From NCBI GenBank assembly GCA_010119145.1, contig JAACSU010000008.1:62001-126000 (forward strand): a stretch of 64,000 bases of DNA, read 5' to 3'. The position numbers were made by a program, and so were the translations under genes. The notes beneath the pieces were generated by a model. That model saw nothing but the letters and a program-made list of their open reading frames with translations, was not told the origin of the DNA and searched no databases. Position 1 is the first letter of the stretch. Each line of letters starts with the position of its first letter. This document shows positions 30,124-47,719 of the stretch, piece after piece. This stretch comes from Candidatus Gracilibacteria bacterium (GTDB lineage Bacteria > Patescibacteriota > Gracilibacteria > BD1-5 > UBA6164).

Positions 30124-33100
30124 TTATCTTACTATATAACTCGATTGTATGTCATATAAGAGTTCGGCAACTTCTTGATTCCCTTGTTTTTGAATTAGTA
30201 CATATGATACATTATCTCAGTTAGATTTGTATCCAAGTCTAAACTCAGAGGCAAGGGTGATTCTTCCATCTTGGAAGACTGTCATTATAGGAGTCCTTGT
30301 AGTGTCTCATGTTCGATATATAGATATACTTCATGGATTATATGGAACTCAGAGTGGGACTCTAAAACTAGAATAATCAGTTTGATTTAAAATGTGAAGA
30401 TAACTCCCTCATGTACTAGCTTGACTCAATTTTGAAACTATATTAATTTCCTCTGCCGGAATCTTCATAAACTGTCGATACACTGGAGTATTTGCATAGT
30501 ATATAACAATCTCTGGATACACAGAAGTATTTTTACTATCATTTGACGGAAGTATTTGGATACTTGCAAGAGCGCTTTTTAAATCAATCTTACCAGTGTA
30601 TTCATTAATCTCAGCCAATGGACTATCATTGTAATACATAACAACTCAAGATGACGTCTGAAGTGATTCAAAATCATATCATCAATCTATATTAGTTGGA
30701 ACAAGGTCTCATTGAGTGGCTTCTTGAAGTTTTTCAATCGTCCCTCCTCTATATCTATATAATCGTATTGGCTCGTCACTGAGAGTCTCATCTATTTGAC
30801 CAACGATAGTATTATCAACAACATCATTTATCTCTGGAACTGGAGCATAGACCTCAAAAGGAACAACTTTAGTTCAGGTATTTCCATTATCATCCGTAAT
30901 AGATATTCTAATATTTTTATTTACAAGCACATCATAGGGACCAAAAGTAATGGCAATACGAGAAGCGTTTCGAGTTATTTGAATATTTTGAGTATTTCTA
31001 TCATTTTCTGAGTTTCCATCATTATCAGAGTCTACTTCTAAATCCATATCTAATCGAACTGATGAAATACCAGAGAGTCCCCCATCCTCATAAATATATG
31101 GAGTTAAATCAACAGTTTGAGTTTGATACACTGGAATACGAATCTTTTGATTGAGTCAAATTTGAGGAGGAAGTGTATCACTAAATGTTTGAGGTGAGAG
31201 AAGTATTTGATTTGACTGTGTTCAGATTAAATCTTCATTAAATGCTTGAATACGAGCATAATAGAAATCGTTTGGAACAGAGAGTCGAATATTATAATTA
31301 TCAGAATTATTATTACCAAGATCATAGACTGTATAAGACTCGACTTCTCTCATATCAAGCTGGACTACTGATCCATCGTGATATCCTACATCTACATGAG
31401 AAGATGCTGAAAGTGTCGAAGTATTTCATTCAAATACTATATGAGAATCATTAAAGAGAGGTTTTCCAATGTAACTTGTAATATTTGTCCCAAATATATC
31501 CTCCTGTATTCAAGAGTCTATATACGCATTCCCATTTATTCAAGTAATAGTAGCACTTCTATCAAATACTATAGAACTGTGTGCATCAACTCGAGTTGAT
31601 CACTCTTCTCCATCACTGAATGTATAACGAATTCTAAAAGAATCATTCGCAGAATATAATGGAGTTTTTGATGTCATAATAACTTGTCACCCACCTTCCA
31701 GCACTTCTCATATATTTTGAAGTTTCTGAGTTGTAAGTTTTAGTCCAGACATATTTCAAGTGTATTTGAGATATGATCTATTTTTTTGAATTTTATAATT
31801 TGAACCTGCAGATGATTGTAAAATTTTGTTTCAAGAATCGTAGGCATCTACAATATGTGTTTCTAGATTTGAAGATACGTAGGTGTCACTCTCATCCATA
31901 TACCTATCAACAAGTGTGTTATACGTCAGTCTAAACTGAGAGATTAAAGGATTAGTTGGTTTTTGAAATGAGATATTTATCGCTTCGTCACTCACTTGAG
32001 CTTCTTCAAAATAGTTGATTGATTCGATGTATTCTCATGAGAAGAAATCATTGTCAGATGCAGCTAAAATAAGTGGTGGACCAGAAACAAAGTTTACAGT
32101 TGGAGTATTTTTTCTATTTTCTTTGAAGTAGAGTTTTCCATCTGCTAGATAGAGAACATCTTCATCTCTATCTCCATCAATATCAACTATACTTGGTTCT
32201 TCGTCACCCTTTAAGATATCTGTATAATCAAACAATTTATAGTTTTTTCCATATTCAAGAACATAGATACCATCATAGGTATATTGATAGGTTCCACTTG
32301 GATTACATGTTCATCCTGAAGAAGAAGTCGATGTATTTCAAGTTGGAGAAACGGCAGCTAATTCAGACCCTTCCTTATAAGAATTGAGTCATCCCGAAAC
32401 TCTTTTTTGAATATTTTCGGCTTGCGCTTCAATTTCAAGTCGTTGTTTCTTTGTCGCTTCACTTTCTCATGAGGCAAGAGTTATAGCTGCGTCAAGTGTA
32501 TTGAGATTGTACTCTTCAAGAGAAGAAGTATACATTTCAAATCGTGAACTATTATCAAAATCACTCTCAACTTCTTTTATAAAACTTGGAGCAGAAAGAA
32601 TCTCTACTTTTTTAATTTGGTCTTGTGAGTATTGTATTTCAGTAGAAAGTATATCAATAAGTGCTTTAAATTTTTCGGAAGAGTTATCTTGTAATCATGC
32701 AATAAATGCATCTTCTTTACTGTACTGCAAATTTCTTACTTCATCCCATAAATTTCTCAGCTCTTGTGTTGATTGATCCTGAGTAACATCCACAGATGCT
32801 AGCTGAGTTCCCACATATTTTGTAAACTCAGTATTGTCTAAAGTTTCATCAGCATTTTCTTGCATAAATGAAATCATATCTTGTCATTTCTTTGCAAGTA
32901 AAGCAGCAACTACATAGATCCCATTTGGATTTTCATTCAGTGGAGCAAATGATACATCATCTGATGAAATACTTCAGTCATTTTCTATTTGTATATTTAC
33001 GTCTTCAATTCAAGCATCAGAAAAATCTAGATTAGAAATCTTTAGATCAAACATATTTGCAATATTACTAGTCTTGGAATCAAGTGGTTCCATAATATTA

Positions 33101-36100
33101 CTTACAGCTTCTATAATAAACTCAGATTCAAATTCAAAATTTACATAGGTAGAAACCTTGATAGCTGAAATTGCCGAGTATGAAAAAGCAGGTGGTTGGA
33201 TATCAATAAAATCTGTTGGGAGGTATCCATTTCTTTCAGTAAGAAATGCAATTTGATCACCAGCTCTCCATTCAGGAACAAACGGAGATGTTTTCAAAAT
33301 ACACATCACTTTTGTAACGAGTTTCATTATATTTAAAACTCCTTCAACAGCCCCAAAAAGTTTTGGTATTTTTGGTGGTGGTGGAAGATCTGGTAATTCT
33401 ACACTTGGAAGTGTTGGGAGATCGGGTAATTCTGGAAGAGTATATCTAGGAAGCAGTGGAAGCTCTGGAAGTGTGAGAGACGCTGATGGAGTATCTGGCA
33501 GAACAAGTCTTGGTGCAAGTGGTAATACTATTGGACGAGGAGATATATTGAAATCTGGAAGATATACAGTCAGTCCTGCTCTAATATTAGACAGGTCTAA
33601 AATAATATCCGGCCATTTTGGAAACTCTATTATAGGAGGACTTGGAATAATTGCTGAAACCAGTCTAAAAATAAATGACTGCAGATCCTGTCGTTCATTC
33701 TTACATTCGTGACATTCTTCTTCATATCAAATAAAGACATCAATAAGCAATTGCCATGATTTTAAAATCGCTTTTATAAGTACATAGAGCTCTACCCACG
33801 CTTTGAATCTCTCACCATTGGTACTAATCCATTCTCACATGAGAGTAGCAATTATCTCAACATTACAGAGTATTTGTTCAAGCCAGTGTTCTTTTACCTG
33901 AATTAGTTTAGAGAGTCTTTCTGGAAGCTCTTTGTACTCTTCTAGAATCTGAATATTTGTTTGGAGGGTATAGAGGAGAGCCTTTGCGTCTACACTTGCT
34001 TTATTTTTTATACTATTTTCTTGTTGGCATCTTTCTTGTTCAGCAGTCGTTGCTCAGTTACAAGCAGCTCATAGTGACCATCGTTGCTCTGCCTTTTCTA
34101 TTTCTCTTTGCCATTGTTCTGCAGCAAGTTTCCAATCAACCAGTGATTTATTTATTTCTGTTTGATCGATCCATGGAATACTCACATCTACTGTCTCTGT
34201 TTCGATATCAAGCAGAGGAATATTTCATAAGAATTCATACACTTCTTGAATTCCAGAAAGCGTTTGATTCGTGTTTCCAATAGTTGATTTTCATTGCGCC
34301 GATATGATTTGTAAATCAATAGCTCGACATCGCACAGCATCTCTTCAACTACAATCAAGGGTTGTTTTTTGAGCACGTAATCCATCTATATTTTGAGTAT
34401 ATTCAAGTCTCTCTTGAGTATTGTCTTCTGTTTTTTCTTGATTAAAATCACTACTTGTCTTAGCAAAATTATTCCAACTCAAATTAATAAGACCTGACAT
34501 TTCGGGGAGTACGACAAATACTTTCGGAAGATTTGTAAGTTTTGAAGTAACTTCATCTAGTTGTCTCTCCACCCAATCCATAAGGAAATTAGGAAATGCT
34601 CATACTCTTTTGTTGTTTATTTGTACTACATCACCAAGATTTCAAGCAGCTAATGCAGAAGTATCAATATCAACTGATGTTGACATGAGAGCTGTTGAAT
34701 TTGAGTTTCCAATATTTATAAAAGGTTGGCTTGGAAGATAATAGTTTCCTCATCCATTTTTTCAAAGATCTGTCATAGCTTGTTCATATTTTCCATACAA
34801 TCAGCTTGGAGCTCTCCCGGTTCTTAAATATTCTAAGTAGTCTCGAACAAAAGAATCTTCAAGTTTTTGAGGTGTAGATACTTGAGTAATAGCTCATTCA
34901 CAATTTCAAGCAATTATATCAAAATCTCCTCATCCAATTGGATATCAAAGTGAAGTAGGATCTCATTCACCTCATTCACAATTAAACAATGGCATCGCAG
35001 CAACTATACAGTTTCATCCAGGAACAATAGGATGAACTCACATAGGATTTGCGTTTCATGCTGCAATAGCGGGTCAACCAAAACATGCTGCGATTCAAAA
35101 TCAACCAGTGAGTGTTGGCGTAGCAAAAAGTCTCACAAAGTTGCTTGGAGATGTTACTCATAGTGATCCTCCAGCTCAAGGAGTCCCATTACAAAATCAT
35201 TTATAAGAATTTTTTGAAACTGGCCAAAACGAAGGTATTTGCATACATCCACCAAATCAAAGTGGTACATTCATACCAGTGAGTGCTGAAAATATAGGGA
35301 TTCATTCTCAAACTCTTAGACCATCTCCAATAGGCATACCAAAGAGCGTTGGATCATTTCATGGTGCCAAAGGAGCCCAGTTGAGAGGAGTTGCTATACA
35401 ACTTCAACCTCCAAAACCACAACTCAGTCCGTCAATAAGCGTATCAACTTCATCAGATATTTCGTCAATTGACTGATTTATAGCGTCAAGTTGATCCATA
35501 AAATCGCTTTGAGAATCGCTAGAATCCATATTATCGTCACGATCAGATATCCCATCGTTATCACTATCTTTCGTAAGATTTGCAAGAGCTTGATTTGCGT
35601 ATTTTACTAATTCTTCATTTGCAGCTTCATTATCTGGATTAGATGAAAGAGTTTTAGTACTTTCTAAAATTGTCTGCATATAGTCAGGAATACCATCTTG
35701 ATCTGCATCTTCAAGCTCAGGGAAATTATTTCACACATCAAGTGCATCTTCATCACAAGTTGGTTCAACAGTTCATGCCTGATATGATCGAACTGCTGTA
35801 GATCTAAATATATCTGCTGTCTTCCCACAGTTTTTTTCATCTTTTTTTAAAATAATATCTCCGTAAATATCATCTCATAATTCTCATTTTTCATAGAGTC
35901 ACACTTGCATGTATCAGTACTCAATTGGCAATGTCTCTAGCTCAAACCGTATAACTGCTTCTTCACCTGGAGCCAAAGTAAATCAATCTATAAGTATTTC
36001 ATATTCACCAATTCCTGATTTTCGAACCACTTCTAAATTATCTTGAGAAATTACGGTAAAGTTATCATCTCTAAATTTAAAATAATCTGGAAGATCATCC

Positions 36101-39100
36101 ACAAATGCAATGTTATTTTTTCGGGTATTACTCGTATTTTTTATAGTAATATCATAAAATACCCTGTCTCAATTTTGAAGATATTCACCATTTACATCTC
36201 TATAAGTTTTAGTTATTTGAAGTCATTGAGTACTCGCATATTGACCTCTTAGAAAATATTTATCTTGATTGAAACCATTCTCAAAACCAGAGTATGAAAC
36301 GTAACTTTGATATCAATCCAAAAACTCTCCCAGTTCATCTGCCTGACCAGCCATTGATTCTGACTCTGATGAACCTCACACATTTGCAACACTCTCGCCA
36401 AATGTATTTACAAGGTTAGTTTGCGAGTTTCACGCTTTGAAATTCGTTGGCACATAAGGAAGTGAAGTATAGAGAAAGCTTTCTACCATAGCTTCGTTTA
36501 TAAATTCTGGAGATCCTGGATTTTCTGGATTATTTTTAAGTTGTTCTAGATACTCTGACGAGTCTTGTAATATTGCAGCAGCTTTTTGCTCATCTATTTG
36601 AGTCAAACCATCAAAATATACAGCTCCTCCATATTCTAGAATTTGATTTGATATACGGATAGCTTGACCGTCTCAAACGAATTTTTTCGTAAATACAGGA
36701 GCTCGTGATGTTCCTCATCCATAAAAAATATGAACAAGTCACGCATCATCGAGTGTAACGATGTCATCCTTGCCATCAGCGTCCATATCAAAACTCTTGG
36801 CTTGTATGATACTTCCATCCAAAATAAAGCTATCTGAAATATCATATCTTTCAAAATCTTTAATTCTATTATTATACAGAGCAGGTTTTCAACTATTATT
36901 TACAAAAAATATATCATCATATCCATCTCCTGTAAAATCTCAGGTTTGGACCATTCTAGCTGATCAGCCATCTGCCGAATACACGAGATTTTCATGCGCG
37001 ATAAATCTGCCTTGAGTATCATTATTTTCAAATAACTGCATATATCAGTCATTTTTTATAGTTAATATATCAAGTCTCTTATCTTTATTATAATCAAATG
37101 TTTGATAGCCAACCAATCAATCACTGTCATCTATAATTTCTCATAGAGTAGAATCAAATGACTTAATCTGATTTGGATTATTTGGGAAGCTATTTTTAAG
37201 AGCTTTGAGGGACAAGACTGGATCTCAGAGATTAATAAGTGAAAAACTTTGAAAATTTTCTGTTGCGTCTCACACACTTTCTCCTGCAGAAAACTGTAAC
37301 AACATAGTATTAGTGTCTTGCCACCCTATTCAAGCCTCTTCTGAAGCTTGCTCTCATCATAAAATATCTCATTTATGAAATTCATTGAGAGCTTTATTAT
37401 CTCCAAAAGGATCATTATAATAAAAATTCCATTGCGCTCTATTATTTTCGTCTAATATTTTTCGTGATGAGTATGAATTTGAAATAAGATGAACAATAAG
37501 TGTATCATCTAATGTTTGAAGTTTATTTTGCAGAAGAAGCTCATCACGAGTTATATTCAGTCAAAATTTTCATGATATTTTCATATTTCATGCAAGTGTC
37601 TCTCCGTGCATAATTTGAAGTGAGATTCATGGTCATTGATGCGTTGTATCAAGCATAAGAGTCACTCATGATTTTCTCACAAATCTACCAGATTTGCTTG
37701 CTTCAAAAATAGTTTTTCCAGATGGATCTCTGAGTGATACGTTCCCATTTTGAGTTTTATAACTATAAGCAGCATCTTCATTTATTTCCAAATCAATAGT
37801 ACTTGTATTAGATATGTTGTAGTATACTTTAGCAACATAATCACTCAGTGCAGCATTATATATATCAAGGGTAAGTCTCCCATTTGCATCTAGATTCACC
37901 CCGTATTCTAAATCTTGGGTTAAACTTCATTGTTCGAGTTTTCAAATAAAACCATTTTTCTCTAGAGAAAAAATATCGTTATATTTATACGGAGAATTGA
38001 GTAAAGAACTCACGGCAAGTGAACTATTATTTCTGTCAAAAAGCAGTGCCCCTGCAAGATAATTTTTTTGAGTGAAGTCACCGTATGGAGCACCTAAAAG
38101 AACAGAATATAATCAGTTAAAAGCATTTCAATCAATAGAATCCTTATCCCAAAAGTAAAATGTTTCTATACTTCCAGCATTGGATCATACACCGCTGACT
38201 CTCAAGAAATTTGTTTCGTCCCAAAATTGAGATATTTGTTGTTTCCGAGCTTGGGAAAGAGATGCATATGCTTCACTTGCTTCTAGTGATTTTTTTTGAG
38301 CAAAAAGAGAAATAAATGTTTCACCATCTACAAAATCCTTAAAAAATCTTTTTCAAAGGCTTGTAAGTTCTCAAGTACTTGTTGTAAATCAGTTTATAGT
38401 AAGTCGTTCTCTATTAAATGGAGCCTGCCCCTCTAACTTAAATGAATTTGCAGATAAATCTGGTATGGATTGAACTTTGAAATACGCAGTCCCTGGAACA
38501 TCTGTTCAAGAAATTTGAAATTGAGTTTTACCATCTACCACTGTTTTTCTTTTACTTCAAAGAGTTGCAATAGCAGTGCTTCCCTCAAATATTTCAGCTT
38601 GTATTTCTGTGACGTTGTTATTAAATACCGTATTTCCATATCTATCTTTGAGGCTTACGTCTACTATAGTTTTAGCGTCTGGAGAAGCTTCAATCTTAGT
38701 TTCACTCAGTGCTAGATCAACTTGAATAGCTTTGTCTGGATTGATGTTACTTCTTTTCTTATAGATGTTATTTCATCCTTCCACTTGAAGTTCAAAGAGT
38801 ATTTGCTTTCAAGCAAGAGTAGAGGTTGTCATAGATACAACTCCAACTCAGTTTTTCACCTCAGTATAAATATCATCACTTTGTCAGTAAAGTTTTGGAA
38901 TAGAGAGATATACTCGAGAATTGAGATTGCTAAGTGTATTCCCCGATTTATCTGTGAATGTTGCTCTAAATTTATATTGATTTCCTCAAACTTTTGGAAC
39001 ACCGTTGAGTCTATCAAGTTGGAGTCTAATATCAGAAATAGTTTGTATTTGATATTTTTTTGTTTGAATAACTTTTCATTGTGCATTTCGAAGCTCAACA

Positions 39101-42100
39101 GACAGAGTATTGTTAGATGCTCTATTAGTTGAACGAAGTCTAAATGGCTTATATCACTCTATAATTTGAGAAGTAATTTTGTCAGTTCAATTATCCTCAA
39201 ATACCAATCATCCTCATTGAATTTCCATATTCACTTCATAGAGCTCACCTGAAGCAAGATTTCACAGAGAGTCAAGCGCACTCACTAAATGAGTAGATAT
39301 ATTTCCATCAGTTTCAATAAGAGTGGTAGAAATATTTACATCTAAAACAGATGCAGCCTTCGGAAGAACTTCAAAATTTCTAACACTCACAAATCACGTT
39401 CCATCTCTCACTTCTATCTCATATACTCACGCTGTTTTAGCTCAATAAATGGAACGTGGTGTGCTAAGATTATTTTCACTGATTCAAGACTGTTCATAAA
39501 CAACTTCGTCATTTCTTTTTAAAGTCACGGAAATTGGATACGTCAGTGGGAGAACATTTCAAGCTCTTGAATAGTTTTCTATTCAAAAATACATCTTTTG
39601 ACTCTTATTTTGATTTGTTGAAGCAGCAATACTCTCATCAATTGATTGTTTGGAAGTATCAAAAAGGTAGATATTTTGAGTACTTGAGGCAATAATACCA
39701 GTTTCTCAACTGTAAGTCCCATCATTTTCAACAAGATAGTTTCTTACAAATAATTGATCAGCTCGTATTTCTATTTTTTTTCGTGAACTCACTAGATTAA
39801 TTACTCTCTCTCCTGAAGAGTCATCGGATTGAAGTCGAGATATGAAATACACATTGGCATCTTGGCTTTGTGTAGTGAAGTAATATTGTACTTCTCATCT
39901 TGAAGCTCTTTGCGATACATTTGTAAATGAAATATAGGCTTGAGCTGCAAGCAAATCTTCTTCTCCTGCAAGTTCTGGTATACTCTGATCATAAATAACT
40001 CTTATGTTATTTCATGAAAAAGCAGAATTGGGATCATTAGGTACCTCTACTCTCGCAAGTTCTTGTTTCACAGTACTTGTACTGTCAAAAGTCACTTGAG
40101 CGTCTTGAGCGTCAAAAATTTGAGTTTTATAAACTCATGAACTTCCATAATAATACCTATCGGCATCTGTAATATTTTTGAGTGAACCACCTTGAAGTTT
40201 TCACTCTATACAGTCATTAATTCCATTTTTATTAACATCTCCATCACAAGCAAATATCTCAGCTCTCTCATCCTCACTGAGAAAGAGTGTATCATATCAA
40301 CAACTTCACTGACCAATTTCAATGGTTGGAGGAAGCATATCTTTGAGCCAGCAAATAACAGCCGGAATCCATTCCCATATAGGAACTCAATCAGGAGGGC
40401 TACATTTAAAGGTATCTTCGCTCGAATCGGAAACAGTTATAGATGAACCATACAGTGTTGTTTCCAGTTCAAGATTTTGAGATATTATTCCAGCATATGG
40501 ATGATCTGATTTTTGTTCAGGATCAAGTTTTATGTACATATTTTGAGCATCTCAAGGAGCAGCAAGATATGCTGTTTCATATGAGGGTTTTGCTTTAGGA
40601 AGATGAAACTGTCCATCTGTGTCTTGAAACTCACTACTAAGGTATTCCTCAAAAACAAACTTATACTTCGAAGAAGGTGTTTTGAGTTGATTCCAATACA
40701 CAGCAAAAACTAAAGTATCATAATAACTTATTGACTTACTTTGATTATTCGCTGTATATACTTCAAGCTCCTTATTTTTAAGAGAGGTATAGAGATTTAC
40801 ATTAGCTCTTGGATATTCTCAAGTTTTGAGATACTCATACATTTCTTTTTCTTTCGCAGAAAGATTTCAAGGATTTGAATTTGCAATAACTGTATTTATT
40901 GATTCTGAAATTGAATCTAAATAGTCTTTTGTTTTTTTCTCAACATTTTCTAAAGTAAGATCCTCTCACGCATCAAGCTCAACTCGAAACAACTGTGGAA
41001 AGTCTATTTTTTTATATCAATAGCTCGGTGCAGTTCCTCAATTAGCTCAAATAAAATCAATATATCTATCAGTATCAATTGGGAGAGATGGTGTAAATAA
41101 AGCACTCGTCTGTTTTCCAAATTCTTCATTTGTTGGAGAAGTATGTAAAATATAAGAACTTATATTTTTGTATGTATAAACTTGTGTTGGTGGACAAGGA
41201 TTACATTCTCTTCCATCTTCGCTACTATTTGTACATACTTGCGCCTGTAATTGTGATTGGATTTCTTTTCAATTGTATACTAAACTTTTAATTTTACAGC
41301 TTCCTCATCCAGAATTCCCCCCTGTACTTTGAGTCCATCATTGAGAAACTATAGAGTCGAAAGTTTCTACATTTGTATCTTGAATATTTGTAGCAGAACA
41401 AAATCTACTTTGAGAAGTTGTTCCAGCTGGAGAATTTTCAATTCATACACTGGAAGACCCATTTGTAAAATCGGTATAATATCTTACATTATCTCAAGGA
41501 TTCACTGGAAGATCAAAACGCACTCTACAACCATAAACGGTATCTCAGTCTGAACCACCTCTCTCATAAGAATAATAATCCTCTCTATAGGTTTGTGTAA
41601 GTACAGGATTAATGAAACAATCAACTGGACTTGGGATCTTTGATTCATCTGAAGATTCCTTCGAACCCAATATATCAAAAACTGGTCTAATTCAACCATT
41701 AAGATTATGTTCTCATAGCTTTAAACCACTATTTCAATTATTAAGTCATTCAAGGTTTATTGGAGTATTTTTCCCCCAGAAACCACTCATTCATGATATA
41801 ACCTTTCAACTTGCTTCATCATATTTCATCGCTAATCAACACATTGCTGTATCAGATTGTACATTATTAATATTAATTCATCTATTTGCTTCAACAAGAG
41901 TACCCGACAAGGTACTTCACCTAAACACACTACACTGAGCTGCGTTTGTAATGTCTGAAGATTTTGTTCCAACAATATATCAAGTATATTCTTGTTTACA
42001 TGATGCTCAGATTCATGTAGAAGAATTTCAGACTACAGACTTAGTGAGCGGAATAGCTATATTTCTTGATAAACCTCATGCAACAAGATTAGTTATTTCT

Positions 42101-43314
42101 TCTTCAAGTCCAGTATTGACATTTTTAATAACTTCAGCTGTCACTTCATCAATGACTGAAATAAGAAACGGAGGCATATCTACATTCACTTTTGATCCCC
42201 CCTCGTTATATCTCCCAGCATTAAATACATGCTTTCTCATTTCAGAAAGCGTAGAACCATTAAATATTTCTAAAAATTTCTTCGTTGCGTTATCTGTAAT
42301 ATATCTCGTGGAAACATCAGGAGCTCAAGTAGTATCAGGTCCATTTGAGAGTCCAGAAATATCAAAACTTGGATCTACATTTTTGAGAAGATCTGCTATT
42401 TCAAGATTTTGAACTCATAGTACTTGATCTTTTACTTTTCAAGCTAAGTCTTTAGAGTACCTATTATAGGTAATATCTTCAATATTTTGAAGGTATGCTT
42501 GGTATCAGACATACTTTTGGTATTGAAGTGCATTATTTTCTCTAAATTGATCATAGTAAAATACATACGGTTCATAATCATCATTCGCCTCCGTAGCCTC
42601 ACCATCTATAATTCCTTTATTTTGATTAAATATTCCTTTTCAAATATAGAAATCATGATTTTTATCAAAGTAATCTTTTATAGAATCAATATCATCTCAG
42701 ACATTTCACGTATTTGGAGAAATAACCCCATGCCAAATTTCTGGTTCTAGTTCAGTATTCGCTTCATCAGATTTTTGATACTTAGAACTTAGCTGATCAA
42801 ATATGTACGACTTCTCAGTGAAATCGACATATGGTAAAATACTTTTTCATGATTGCGCCCCATCAAACACCAGTGGAACTGGAATTTTTCAGACTAAAAC
42901 AGTTCAAACAAGTCGTGATTCAAAATTAATGTTATCTTTTACTGATTTGTATCATTCGTTGTAGAGTGATTCATTGAGTGAAGCTATATCCAGTACCGAC
43001 GCGTCACTTGGGGTTGGAAGGATTACAACTTTTGTATTTTCTAAAACTCATTGTATATCACGACTATACCTTACGAGCTTTGATCTTACAGCACTATAGG
43101 TATCTTCATCTACTATGATAGACACTAGGTTATAATATTCATCTTGTGCAGCAAAAGCTTTATATGAGAAATATTGTTGAAATGGAATTTGAAGGGTCAC
43201 AGAAAAGAGCAGGAAAAAAATGAGTAATCCTGAAAGTATTTTTTGTAATCCCGGCATCCACATAAATAGGTAAGTTTTCTGTATACTAAAGGGAGTGTAC
43301 TGAGTTTTTAACAT
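30124..43314 (-). CDS. giant secreted surface protein (~4396 aa)
   Basis: One continuous frame of about 4397 codons; no TAA or TAG occurs in it. Signal region: MLKTQYTPFS...MPGLQKILSGLLIFFLLFSV then LQIPFQQYFSYKAFA. Order by approximate residue: unknown N-terminal ~1000 with cysteine pairs; beta-rich Ig/invasin-like units (LSETKIEASPDAKTIVDVSL, LKDRYGNTVFNN) to ~1700; FG-GAP/VCBS-type calcium repeats (DYNKDKRLDILTI, GDFTGDGYDDIFFV, DMDADGKDDIVTL, ~2085-2190); a DUF11-like domain (~2360); TSP3-like loops (DADQDGIPDY, DSDNDGISDRDD, ~2535-2597); helical region; a Pro/Leu strip (LPELPDLPTLPSVELPDLPP, ~3249-3318); another FG-GAP-like loop (DIDGDRDEDVLYL); beta-rich C-terminus. No membrane or LPXTG anchor at the end. 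Start uncertain: ATG 43314, 43263 or 43257. Adhesion to host or prey cells is likely but unproven. Confidence 0.88.
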
Positions 43315-43383
43315 AGTACCAATTATCGCTCTTAAATCAATAAAAAAGTGAACAAATAATGTGTACAAACTCTTATTAATCCT

Positions 43384-43408
43384 ATATTTTCACAGCTTGT
43401 GAAATATA
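43384..43408. promoter_or_regulatory. inverted repeat upstream of the giant gene
   Basis: ATATTTTCACA-GCT-TGTGAAATAT, an almost perfect palindrome without a T-run, about 70 bases before the giant gene's start and also upstream of the divergent 43600 gene. It could be an operator or a 5'-UTR hairpin. Confidence 0.4.
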
Positions 43409-43599
43409 TAATAAATTCTAGCATATAATACTAGCATCTAAAACTATTTTTGCTTGACGATAACTCGAGTCCTACTCTGAAAAATTACTATCATACAAGT
43501 AATATTTTTCTTACTAAAATATGCAAAACTTTTAATATTTGATTTACACTTAAAAGTATGAGAATATATGTATATATTATATTTTAAAAATTGAATTAT

Positions 43600-45312: not shown

Positions 45313-47340
45313 TTAACTATATAATGGATACTCTTTCGTCAACTTCTCTACATGTTTTTTATCTCCAAAAATAAGTATTCCAAGGTATTCAACTTCTGAC
45401 ATTTTTTTTATTTCAGTATTTTTTTGTACGATACTATCATCACTCGTTTCAAGCATTTCTCGAGTAAATGGAACGACCTCTAATCAACCATTTTTAGCAA
45501 TCTTATATAACTCTTGAATTTTTTGATTATTTTCAGCCTGCTTGATAATAATTGCATGTTGAATATTCATTGGAATACTTTGTCCATCTGAAGTTATTGC
45601 TGACTCTTTTTCAAAAAGGCTTTTTCAGACTCTTGCTGAAAACGAAGCAGATAAATGAGCAATAGTGTTAAGCTCTTGCCAATTTTGAAGTTTTGATTCT
45701 TTGTTTAACAGCGCTACCGCAAGCTGTGTTTTCTTACTAGGTTTTTCTTCGTTTGTATTGGTTTTCATAAGTGGAAAGAGAACCATATCTCTAAGATTAT
45801 CTTGGCCTGTTAAGAGAGCCAGTATTCTCTCTACCCCCATTCACCAACCAGATTGTGGTGGCATGCCGTATTCCATAGCAAGAACAAAGTCATCATCACT
45901 CGAGGTTGCCTCCAGATCTCATTTTGCAAGAGCATCTCCCTGTGCTTCAAAATTAGCAATTTGAATTTTAGGATCAACCAGCTCACTATATGCTTTAATA
46001 ACTTCCCAGCCATTGATAACGAGTTGCCATTGTTCAACTATATCTGGGTTCGTGTCATTTCCTCTCGCAAGAGGTTGCATAGTCTTAGGATAGTTATACA
46101 CAAATGCTGGTCCCGTAATACCTGGACGAAGTACTTTTTTATACAGGTAGTCTATCATTGTAGCCGTCACTTGTTTATCTATTCACTCCCAACTATATCC
46201 TGACTTTTTTATTTCAGTTCTGAGTCTATCCTCATCTTCTGGTCAATACTGAGATACATCAATTCCAGATTTGTCTAATACTCACGCTATATAATCGATT
46301 CTTGGCCACGGAGTCGCAAAATTAACTTGTTTTTCTGCTCAAGATTTATCTTTTACAAGGACTTCTTTTTTCAGTTCAGGAATATTTTGAAATACAAAAT
46401 CAAACATATCTTCCGTAAACTTCATATTATCCTCATAGTTCCACCATGCTGCGTAATGTTCAATTGCTGAAAACTCTTGTATATGACTTGGATCTGATCA
46501 CTCATTTCTAAAATTTCTTGTGAATTCTACGACTCTTTCAAATCTTCAAACAGTCGCTTTTTTCAGTGCTGTTTCTGGAGAAATTCGTAGGAAAAACTCT
46601 TCATTAAAATCATTGTGATGCGTAGTAAATGGAGCGGCTGCAGCTCAGGAAGCAGAGTTTCATAAAACTGGTGTCTCTATTTCTATAAATGCTTGAGATT
46701 CATAAAAATCTCTGAGAGTCTTTACAAAGGTACTTCTGAGCTTAAATCTCTCAAAACTCTCAGTATTCATAATCATATCAAGATATCTCTGTCTATAGAT
46801 TGTTTCTATATCCTGAACTCAATGCCATTTTTCTGGAAGTGGTCTCACAGCTTTTGACATGATTTGAAATTCCGATACAAAAATAGTGAGTTCACCATGC
46901 TTGGTTTCAAATAAATCTCATTGAACTGCAATATAATCACCCACCTGACAAAATTTTTCTGCTATTTTATAGGCTGATTTTTCTTCTCCGTCTATTTCTA
47001 TACTCTCAACTATTTCAGTTCCTGTATTTAGTTTTACAAGGTCACGCATAAAAAATACCTGAATATCTCAGCTGTGGTCTCTAAGTTTTGCAAAGGTAAG
47101 TTTTCCATGAGATTTTGTAGCCATTATTCTTCCAGCAGTTTTAAACTCAGCTATACTTCCTCAAACCATGAGATTTTCTATATCTCTAATATATCCTCCT
47201 TTCGTGTCATCTTCACTTCTCTTTCTAATTTCTGCTATATCTATTTTTCACTTTAGGTTATTCGCGTACACGATAACTCCAGCATCTTTCAGTGCCTGGA
47301 TTTTTTTCATTCGGTCTTGTGATTCTTTTGAGTAGTCCAT
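45313..47340 (-). CDS. lysS: lysyl-tRNA synthetase, class II, with C-terminal DUF2000-like extension
   Basis: 675 residues. An N-terminal OB-fold anticodon domain ([20 protein letters not shown]...) is followed by the class II catalytic core: motif 2 [20 protein letters not shown], the [16 protein letters not shown] region and motif 3 [18 protein letters not shown]. The core ends near residue 550; bacterial LysRS usually ends there (~500 residues). The last ~115 residues ([20 protein letters not shown], then [13 protein letters not shown]) resemble the DUF2000/peptidyl-tRNA-hydrolase-2-like fold. Expression appears to be controlled by an attenuator with a Lys-rich leader peptide (47361-47516). 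TGA glycines occur in both parts, so the extension is not readthrough. Confidence 0.93.
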
Positions 47341-47360: not shown

Positions 47361-47394
47361 AAAAAAACTGTTTTCTTTTCAAAAAACAGTTTTT
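47361..47394 (-). terminator. attenuator terminator in the lysS leader
   Basis: On the minus strand, AAAAACTGTTTT-TTGAAAAG-AAAACAGTTTTTTT: a 10-base-pair stem and T7 run, ending 20 bases before the lysS start and after its promoter. A terminator inside a leader, before the gene it precedes, implies attenuation. Confidence 0.65.
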
Positions 47395-47422
47395 CTCATC
47401 CAAAAGGAGAGCCATTTTCGAT

Positions 47423-47461
47423 TTATGACTTTCTAGGTTTCTTTTGTTTGAGAATTTTCAT
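47423..47461 (-). CDS. candidate lysine-rich leader peptide of lysS
   Basis: 12-codon frame MKILKQKKPRKS with a TAA stop, starting ~20 bases after the predicted transcription start. Five of twelve residues are lysine plus one arginine. Its position between the promoter and the leader terminator, upstream of lysyl-tRNA synthetase, is that of an attenuation leader peptide: stalling at lysine codons when charged tRNA-Lys is scarce could prevent terminator formation. No antiterminator pairing was found by eye. Confidence 0.5.
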   Translation of the reverse strand: MKILKQKKPRKS

Positions 47462-47488
47462 ATATATAGTAGTTTGAGTAACGGCTGA

Positions 47489-47516
47489 ATTATAAAGAGA
47501 GTGTAGTATTTTGCAA
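47489..47516 (-). promoter_or_regulatory. promoter of the lysS leader
   Basis: On the minus strand, TTGCAA (plus 47511-47516), a 16-base spacer and a perfect TATAAT (plus 47489-47494). It is 149 bases before lysS, leaving room for the leader peptide and terminator. Confidence 0.65.
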
Positions 47517-47542: not shown

Positions 47543-47719
47543 TTAACTCTTTTGTTCAATTTTATCTTTATAGTTAATATCTCGTATAACTTCATCCCCA
47601 CCAAAAATAGTAACGAGACTATCTTTTACACCATCCATAAATCAAGAAACAGCTGCAGCAAAAATACCAGGTTCATTTACTATTACTATTTTTCTCTCAA
47701 TTTCATATCTTTCACTCAT
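47543..47719 (-). CDS. small protein, function unknown
   Basis: 58 residues, MSERYEIERKIVIVNEPGIF then AAAVSGFMDGVKDSLVTIFG and a charged end (DINYKDKIEQKS). No signal peptide or transmembrane helix long enough to be convincing. It precedes the lysS leader on the same strand; no family recognised. The single frame with a TGA glycine and normal codon use supports it as real, but it is short. Confidence 0.55.

Follow-up and report, generated by a model that had tools for sequence, protein, structure and literature searches.

A putative lysine-codon attenuator upstream of lysS in a genus of Gracilibacteria

Classical attenuators of the trp, his and thr operons are built from a protector (regions 1:2), an antiterminator (2:3) and a terminator (3:4), with the stop codon of the leader frame beside region 2. 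The lysS leader described here follows the same scheme, including the stop codon adjoining region 2, but the switch would control a synthetase gene and not a pathway, and the 3' arm of its protector falls in part into the stretch that separates regions 2 and 3. A 2010 survey by Lopatovskaya et al., cited in PMC4833913, reportedly covers attenuation in amino acid and aminoacyl-tRNA operons. Among synthetase genes, pheST is a known target of classical attenuation, and attenuators of trpS and leuS in Streptomyces have been predicted by comparison, while lysine genes are listed as riboswitch-controlled (PMC1262725). Like the putative attenuator of lysS, that of pheST in gammaproteobacteria (E. coli) has a leader peptide enriched in the amino acid of its synthetase, with alternative antiterminator and terminator structures ahead of a synthetase operon. 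The lysS leader differs from it in using Lys in place of Phe, in its host, a Gracilibacterium with genetic code 25, in lacking a Shine-Dalgarno sequence, in being likely leaderless in several relatives, and in its AT-rich terminator. The Streptomyces trpS and leuS attenuators (PMC1262725) are likewise of the classical type and located upstream of synthetase genes, but concern other amino acids in a different, GC-rich phylum. Lysine riboswitches (L box) and T-boxes share with the proposed lysS switch the control of lysine-related and synthetase genes by transcription termination; unlike them, the lysS leader shows no family match and neither a conserved UGGN-ACC motif nor a specifier hairpin. 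Neither leader-peptide attenuation in the Candidate Phyla Radiation (CPR) or Gracilibacteria nor a lysine-codon attenuator of lysS was found in the open-access literature (the 2010 survey lay outside this scope), in line with the first-pass annotation of this DNA, which had regarded such an attenuator on lysS in CPR as new. The kind of system is known, and the lysine codons, lysS and the CPR host are new as far as searched.

The lysS locus and its candidate leader

In the window, which is the whole 64,000-nt stretch of DNA that was analysed, lysS is preceded on the minus strand by the following elements:

47489..47516 (-), promoter of the leader transcript, TTGCAA-16-TATAAT, 10/12 consensus matches
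47423..47461 (-), candidate leader-peptide frame MKILKQKKPRKS, ATG 47461 to TAA 47423, region 1 of the attenuator
47410..47421 (-), region 2, UCGAAAAUGGCU, antiterminator arm directly after the leader stop, pairs with the 5' arm of the terminator
47393..47454 (-), protector hairpin (1:2), Lys-codon region UUCUCA (47454-47449) and following with UGAGAA (47398-47393)
47361..47396 (-), intrinsic terminator (regions 3:4), AAAACUGUUUUUU-GAAA-AGAAAACAGUUUU and U run, identified by folding energy and pair conservation
45313..47340 (-), lysS, lysyl-tRNA synthetase, 675 aa, code 25; TIGR00499 lysS_bact, PF00152, PF01336, PF09391

The encoded protein is an equivalog-level match to TIGR00499 lysS_bact (429 bits, cut-off 427.6). 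Its start codon (ATG 47340) lies 20 nt past the last T of the terminator, and the gene is open under code 25 only (UGA=Gly); the genome reads UGA as glycine. The synthetase carries a DUF2000 domain at its C-terminus (residues 549-674; window 45313-47340, -). Matches span the full length (1-674/675) in G008, G016 and G019, in those members of the genus whose match is complete and, more distantly, in G043 and G050, while in most other genera the match ends near residue 530-540. The window also contains one uninterrupted frame that is 4437 codons long under code 25 (30124-43437, -) and encodes a very large protein, probably a surface protein.

The promoter consists of a -35 box TTGCAA (47516-47511), a 16-nt spacer and a -10 box TATAAT (47494-47489). 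Promoter-like sites are not in excess in this region (43 found, 36.9 expected from shuffles), and the promoter alone is therefore weak evidence. The leader ATG is located 27 nt past the -10 box, with no Shine-Dalgarno sequence before it, and opens the frame ATG AAA ATT CTC AAA CAA AAG AAA CCT AGA AAG TCA TAA, in which five of the 12 codons specify Lys (codons 2, 5, 7, 8 and 11). At least five Lys are found in 3 of the 161 ATG frames of up to 12 codons in the window, so that the Lys content of MKILKQKKPRKS is by itself only modestly unusual. One genome alone would not decide the matter, as Lys-rich short frames and promoter-like matches occur in an AT-rich window; what places MKILKQKKPRKS above chance is the recurrence of frame, Lys codons, stop position, hairpins and promoter in seven of eight genomes of the genus.

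The 40-nt terminator stretch folds with -14.5 kcal/mol compared with -5.2 +/- 1.7 in shuffles (z = -5.5), and the full leader of 143 nt with -28.1 compared with -15.9 +/- 3.0 (z = -4.0). The terminator stem comprises 13 pairs, just two of which are G-C besides one wobble. The promoter and the 12-codon frame with five lysines proposed in the first-pass annotation are both present, and its observation of promoter, MKILKQKKPRKS frame and terminator 20 nt before lysS is confirmed to the base, on the minus strand. Its description of the terminator as "strong" has to be qualified, as the long stem contains just those two G-C pairs. The antiterminator and the protector hairpin, which in folding encloses region 2, were both found by folding and had gone unmentioned in that annotation.

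Conservation and exclusive pairings among relatives

We located lysS in 59 of 60 related genomes (MAGs) and at 80 loci in GTDB genomes, most of which bear the title Candidatus Gracilibacteria or SR1. The gene occurs in every one of the eight genus members, and in seven of them it is preceded by the same cassette: a promoter, a short frame that opens with ATG and has 12-15 codons, 2-5 of them Lys codons with a putative regulatory role, UAA, a conserved segment, and an intrinsic terminator between the leader ORF and the gene, 20-30 nt before lysS. Both the promoter and the short ORF, which is the candidate leader, are thus conserved. The seven frames (MKILKQKKPRKS, MKILKQKKLRKS, MKNKFLKHASKHCR, MQNIFLKHSSKHLD, MKNIFLKRASKHCR, MNIQTIKHTIKHISK and MNFIFLKHIKHISN) have diverged in sequence but retain the start, the place of the stop and Lys codons; two relatives have just two Lys codons. 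The leader UAA is positioned 0-2 nt before region 2, a UCGAnnAUGGC-like segment, in all seven. Most of the seven leaders have a promoter of the form TTGCNN-N16-TATAAT/TATACT in the corresponding position, and the leader ATG lies merely ~6-7 nt past the -10 box in several relatives, which suggests a leaderless start. The upstream genes differ among the seven (they are unrelated in most), yet promoter, leader and terminator keep their place ahead of lysS, and the cassette is therefore assigned to lysS.

The leader is absent from the eighth genus member (G002). A few lysS genes of other genera have an upstream terminator, and no Lys-rich frame with the cassette layout was evident there. A covariance model of the leader finds exactly one copy per genome, at lysS, in the seven genomes and no match in the 41 remaining genomes of the family; as the seven leaders are also its training set, only the single copy and the absence elsewhere are informative. 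Because G002 and all other genera are without it, the phylogenetic depth of the lysS leader, one genus, is shallow.

The seven leaders were folded up to the 5' arm of the terminator in three states: free, with a ribosome on an internal Lys codon (Lys codon in the A site, a fixed 12 nt masked downstream), and with a ribosome at the stop codon. In the free RNA, six of seven leaders form the protector hairpin 1:2 between the Lys-codon region and the segment before the terminator; the exception, G003, prefers 2:3 over 1:2 by a small margin when folded up to region 3. With the ribosome on an internal Lys codon, the antiterminator 2:3, which is exclusive with the terminator, forms in all seven (-8.5 to -17.9 kcal/mol). 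In the model, region 2 is covered once the ribosome sits at the stop codon, and the antiterminator is lost and the terminator free in each case.

Folded up to the terminator, all seven leaders have energies below those of dinucleotide shuffles (p 0.000-0.022). Antiterminator energies, too, lie below the shuffle mean in all seven (p 0.000-0.092), with shuffle support in most leaders and only marginal values in G004 (p=0.09) and G001 (p=0.05). Pairing in register is likewise conserved: 100% of cells are paired in the terminator of the seven sequences (50-63% when slid) and 78% in the antiterminator (37-53% when slid). The terminator includes one compensatory UA->CG change and one AU/GU/GC series, whereas among the seven sequences no antiterminator pair was changed on both sides. 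Region 2 of the antiterminator shows conservation and not compensation, and in three genomes it has a 2x2 U-U internal loop. As covariation was not found, the antiterminator rests on complementarity and energy. In the covariance check of leader and alternative hairpins suggested in the first-pass annotation, compensatory change was seen in the terminator and not in the antiterminator. Conversely, two findings that were to speak against an attenuator, namely a leader frame or Lys codons that are not conserved in relatives and a terminator that belongs to an upstream transcript, were both looked for and not obtained: frame and codons are kept in seven of eight genus genomes, and the upstream genes vary, with a promoter in between. 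Together with the conserved cassette and the exclusive pairings, this supports the proposed architecture of an attenuator on the synthetase of the same amino acid.

We consider it highly probable that a trp-type ribosome-mediated transcription attenuator ties lysS expression to charged tRNA-Lys, a reading that builds on what sequence comparison establishes: the individual elements, their retention ahead of lysS in seven genomes, the exclusive predicted pairings and the thrS and proS counterparts described below. RNA polymerase would start at the promoter at 47489-47516, and the 12-codon leader ORF would be translated at once. When Lys-tRNA is plentiful, the ribosome would reach the UAA and cover region 2, allowing 3:4 to pair and transcription to stop 20 nt before lysS. 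When Lys-tRNA is scarce, stalling on the Lys codons would serve as the signal: the protector would be blocked, the 2:3 antiterminator would form and polymerase would read into lysS, with read-through expected to rise as Lys-tRNA falls. In an untranslated leader, the protector hairpin would form and the terminator would win. If this holds true, trp-type attenuation, and hence tight coupling of transcription and translation, is at work in the CPR, whose tiny genomes probably rely on amino acids from a host or from neighbours, and lysine, which is handled by riboswitches elsewhere, gains a codon-based sensor on its synthetase. It also predicts a set of amino-acid starvation responses in unculturable organisms that is checkable in existing metatranscriptomes.

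Other explanations for the leader

A conserved and structured leader with exclusive pairings could also respond to lysine (L box) or uncharged tRNA-Lys (T-box) bound directly by the RNA, with the short frame being incidental. Region 2 contains UGGC, the T-box sequence for a tRNA with discriminator G, in five of the seven lysS leaders, and T-box-like UGGN-ACC motifs are found before glyS, aspS and ilvA of the same genome. However, G004 (UGAC) and G001 (GAGC) have lost the UGG, and in none of the leaders does ACC follow it, which argues that the lysS leader is not a T-box, and RF00230 is unmatched. The L box was rejected as well, since neither the Rfam lysine riboswitch nor the T-box model matched the window at gathering score or the leader locally at E<=5. 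No other Rfam family reached its gathering score in the window either, and none gave a plausible match to the leader. Moreover, the frame keeps its start, stop and Lys codons, and the position of the stop relative to region 2 is fixed. We regard direct binding as improbable.

Slightly less probable still is a peptide attenuator that responds to a signal other than lysine, such as histidine, a drug that acts on the ribosome or ribosome stalling in general. Five relatives have His after Lys (FLKHASKH, TIKHTIKH), as KH...KH in four and KR...KH in one, and attenuators with non-cognate signals are known from drug-resistance genes (PMC4191407, PMC10314930). Lys is nevertheless present in all seven leaders, while neither the window's own genome nor G004 has His there, on which grounds histidine was discarded as the signal; the thrS and proS leaders, too, match their own amino acid. 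We give the least credence to an ordinary constitutive 5' region, in which the hairpin would terminate the upstream gene or serve processing or stability. AT-rich hairpins are common, the lysS hairpin has only its two G-C pairs besides the wobble, and a 58-aa frame (47543-47719) ends ~150 nt upstream of it. Yet the promoter separates the upstream gene from the hairpin, leader and terminator remain with lysS while the upstream gene changes among relatives, and a constitutive region would leave the leader frame and region 2 unexplained.

Leaders of other synthetase genes

Counterparts of the proposed lysine-codon attenuator precede further synthetase genes of the same genomes. The window's genome has a Thr-run leader, MLALLETSTTTTLNGGVL, before thrS, and thrS leaders occur family-wide (MLALLETSTTTTLNGGVL, MLALLETSTTPTLTGGIL, MLALLVTTTTTTLC, MLALLVTTTTTTLY, MLALLVTSSTTTTLT, MLAQLETTTPISLF, MRLALLVTTPTTLSLEGFL), with more divergent frames in other genera of the family and a terminator ~15-30 nt before thrS in most. 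Lys is absent from the thrS leaders listed for the genus, and the Lys richness of the lysS leaders is therefore not just AT bias. Pro-containing leaders precede proS, in the window's genome as well (MKQLLNWHLQPLNLSS, MKQRLNWHLQPLNLFT, MNTKQNRNLQPLNPSL at the end of a longer frame, MNKQMNLHLQPLNPSQ, MNTKQNWHLQPFYFFFSR), again with terminators, about 20-30 nt ahead of the gene. When thrS and proS leaders were folded, the antiterminator became available with the ribosome stalled on a cognate codon and was blocked once the ribosome stood at the stop.

A terminator scan of 878 ORFs (about four fifths of the genome), from which terminators within 60 nt of the upstream gene were excluded, yielded 17 strong gene-proximal terminators. 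Five of these lie before synthetases (lysS, thrS, proS, glyS and aspS), an excess with p about 2e-5 if about 20 synthetases are assumed among the 878 ORFs. Terminators at leuS and trpS (own genome and G004) were dismissed, being unconserved among relatives and resembling ends of upstream genes. Further strong terminators were observed at G000:C7 142451 (-), before an rplJ-like (L10-like) gene, and 451215 (-), before metK; no cognate leader frame was found before either gene.

Before glyS, aspS and ilvA, a T-box-like UGGN-ACC motif takes the place of a cognate leader frame, and the Rfam T-box model did not match these three leaders even at E<=5. It seems reasonably likely that Gracilibacteria possess both synthetase attenuators (Lys/lysS, Thr/thrS, Pro/proS) and divergent, Rfam-unrecognised T-box-like leaders (glyS, aspS, ilvA), with lysS representing the first lysine-codon attenuator, leaderless in several species.

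Among the thrS leaders (L160/L214 and L159/L215, for example), those of the window's genome and of G004 read through an in-frame UGA (Gly) where close relatives have UAG. This shifts the leader stop a few codons downstream, into the antiterminator segment, and could bear on the working of the switch under code 25. The T-box-like leaders are located at about G000:C7 441430 (glyS), 283023 (aspS) and 616700 (ilvA) (loci L181, L288 and L305) and carry GGUGGNACC followed by a terminator before the gene. A motif ACYUGNAACC / CACCUGCAA recurs in the proS and thrS leaders and in the T-box-like leaders of aspS and ilvA. The UGGA and UGGC of the T-box-like leaders agree with the discriminators of tRNA-Gly and tRNA-Asp/Asn. 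A 5' hairpin is common to ilvA and aspS, and its 7-nt loop holds AUC / AAC as candidate specifiers.
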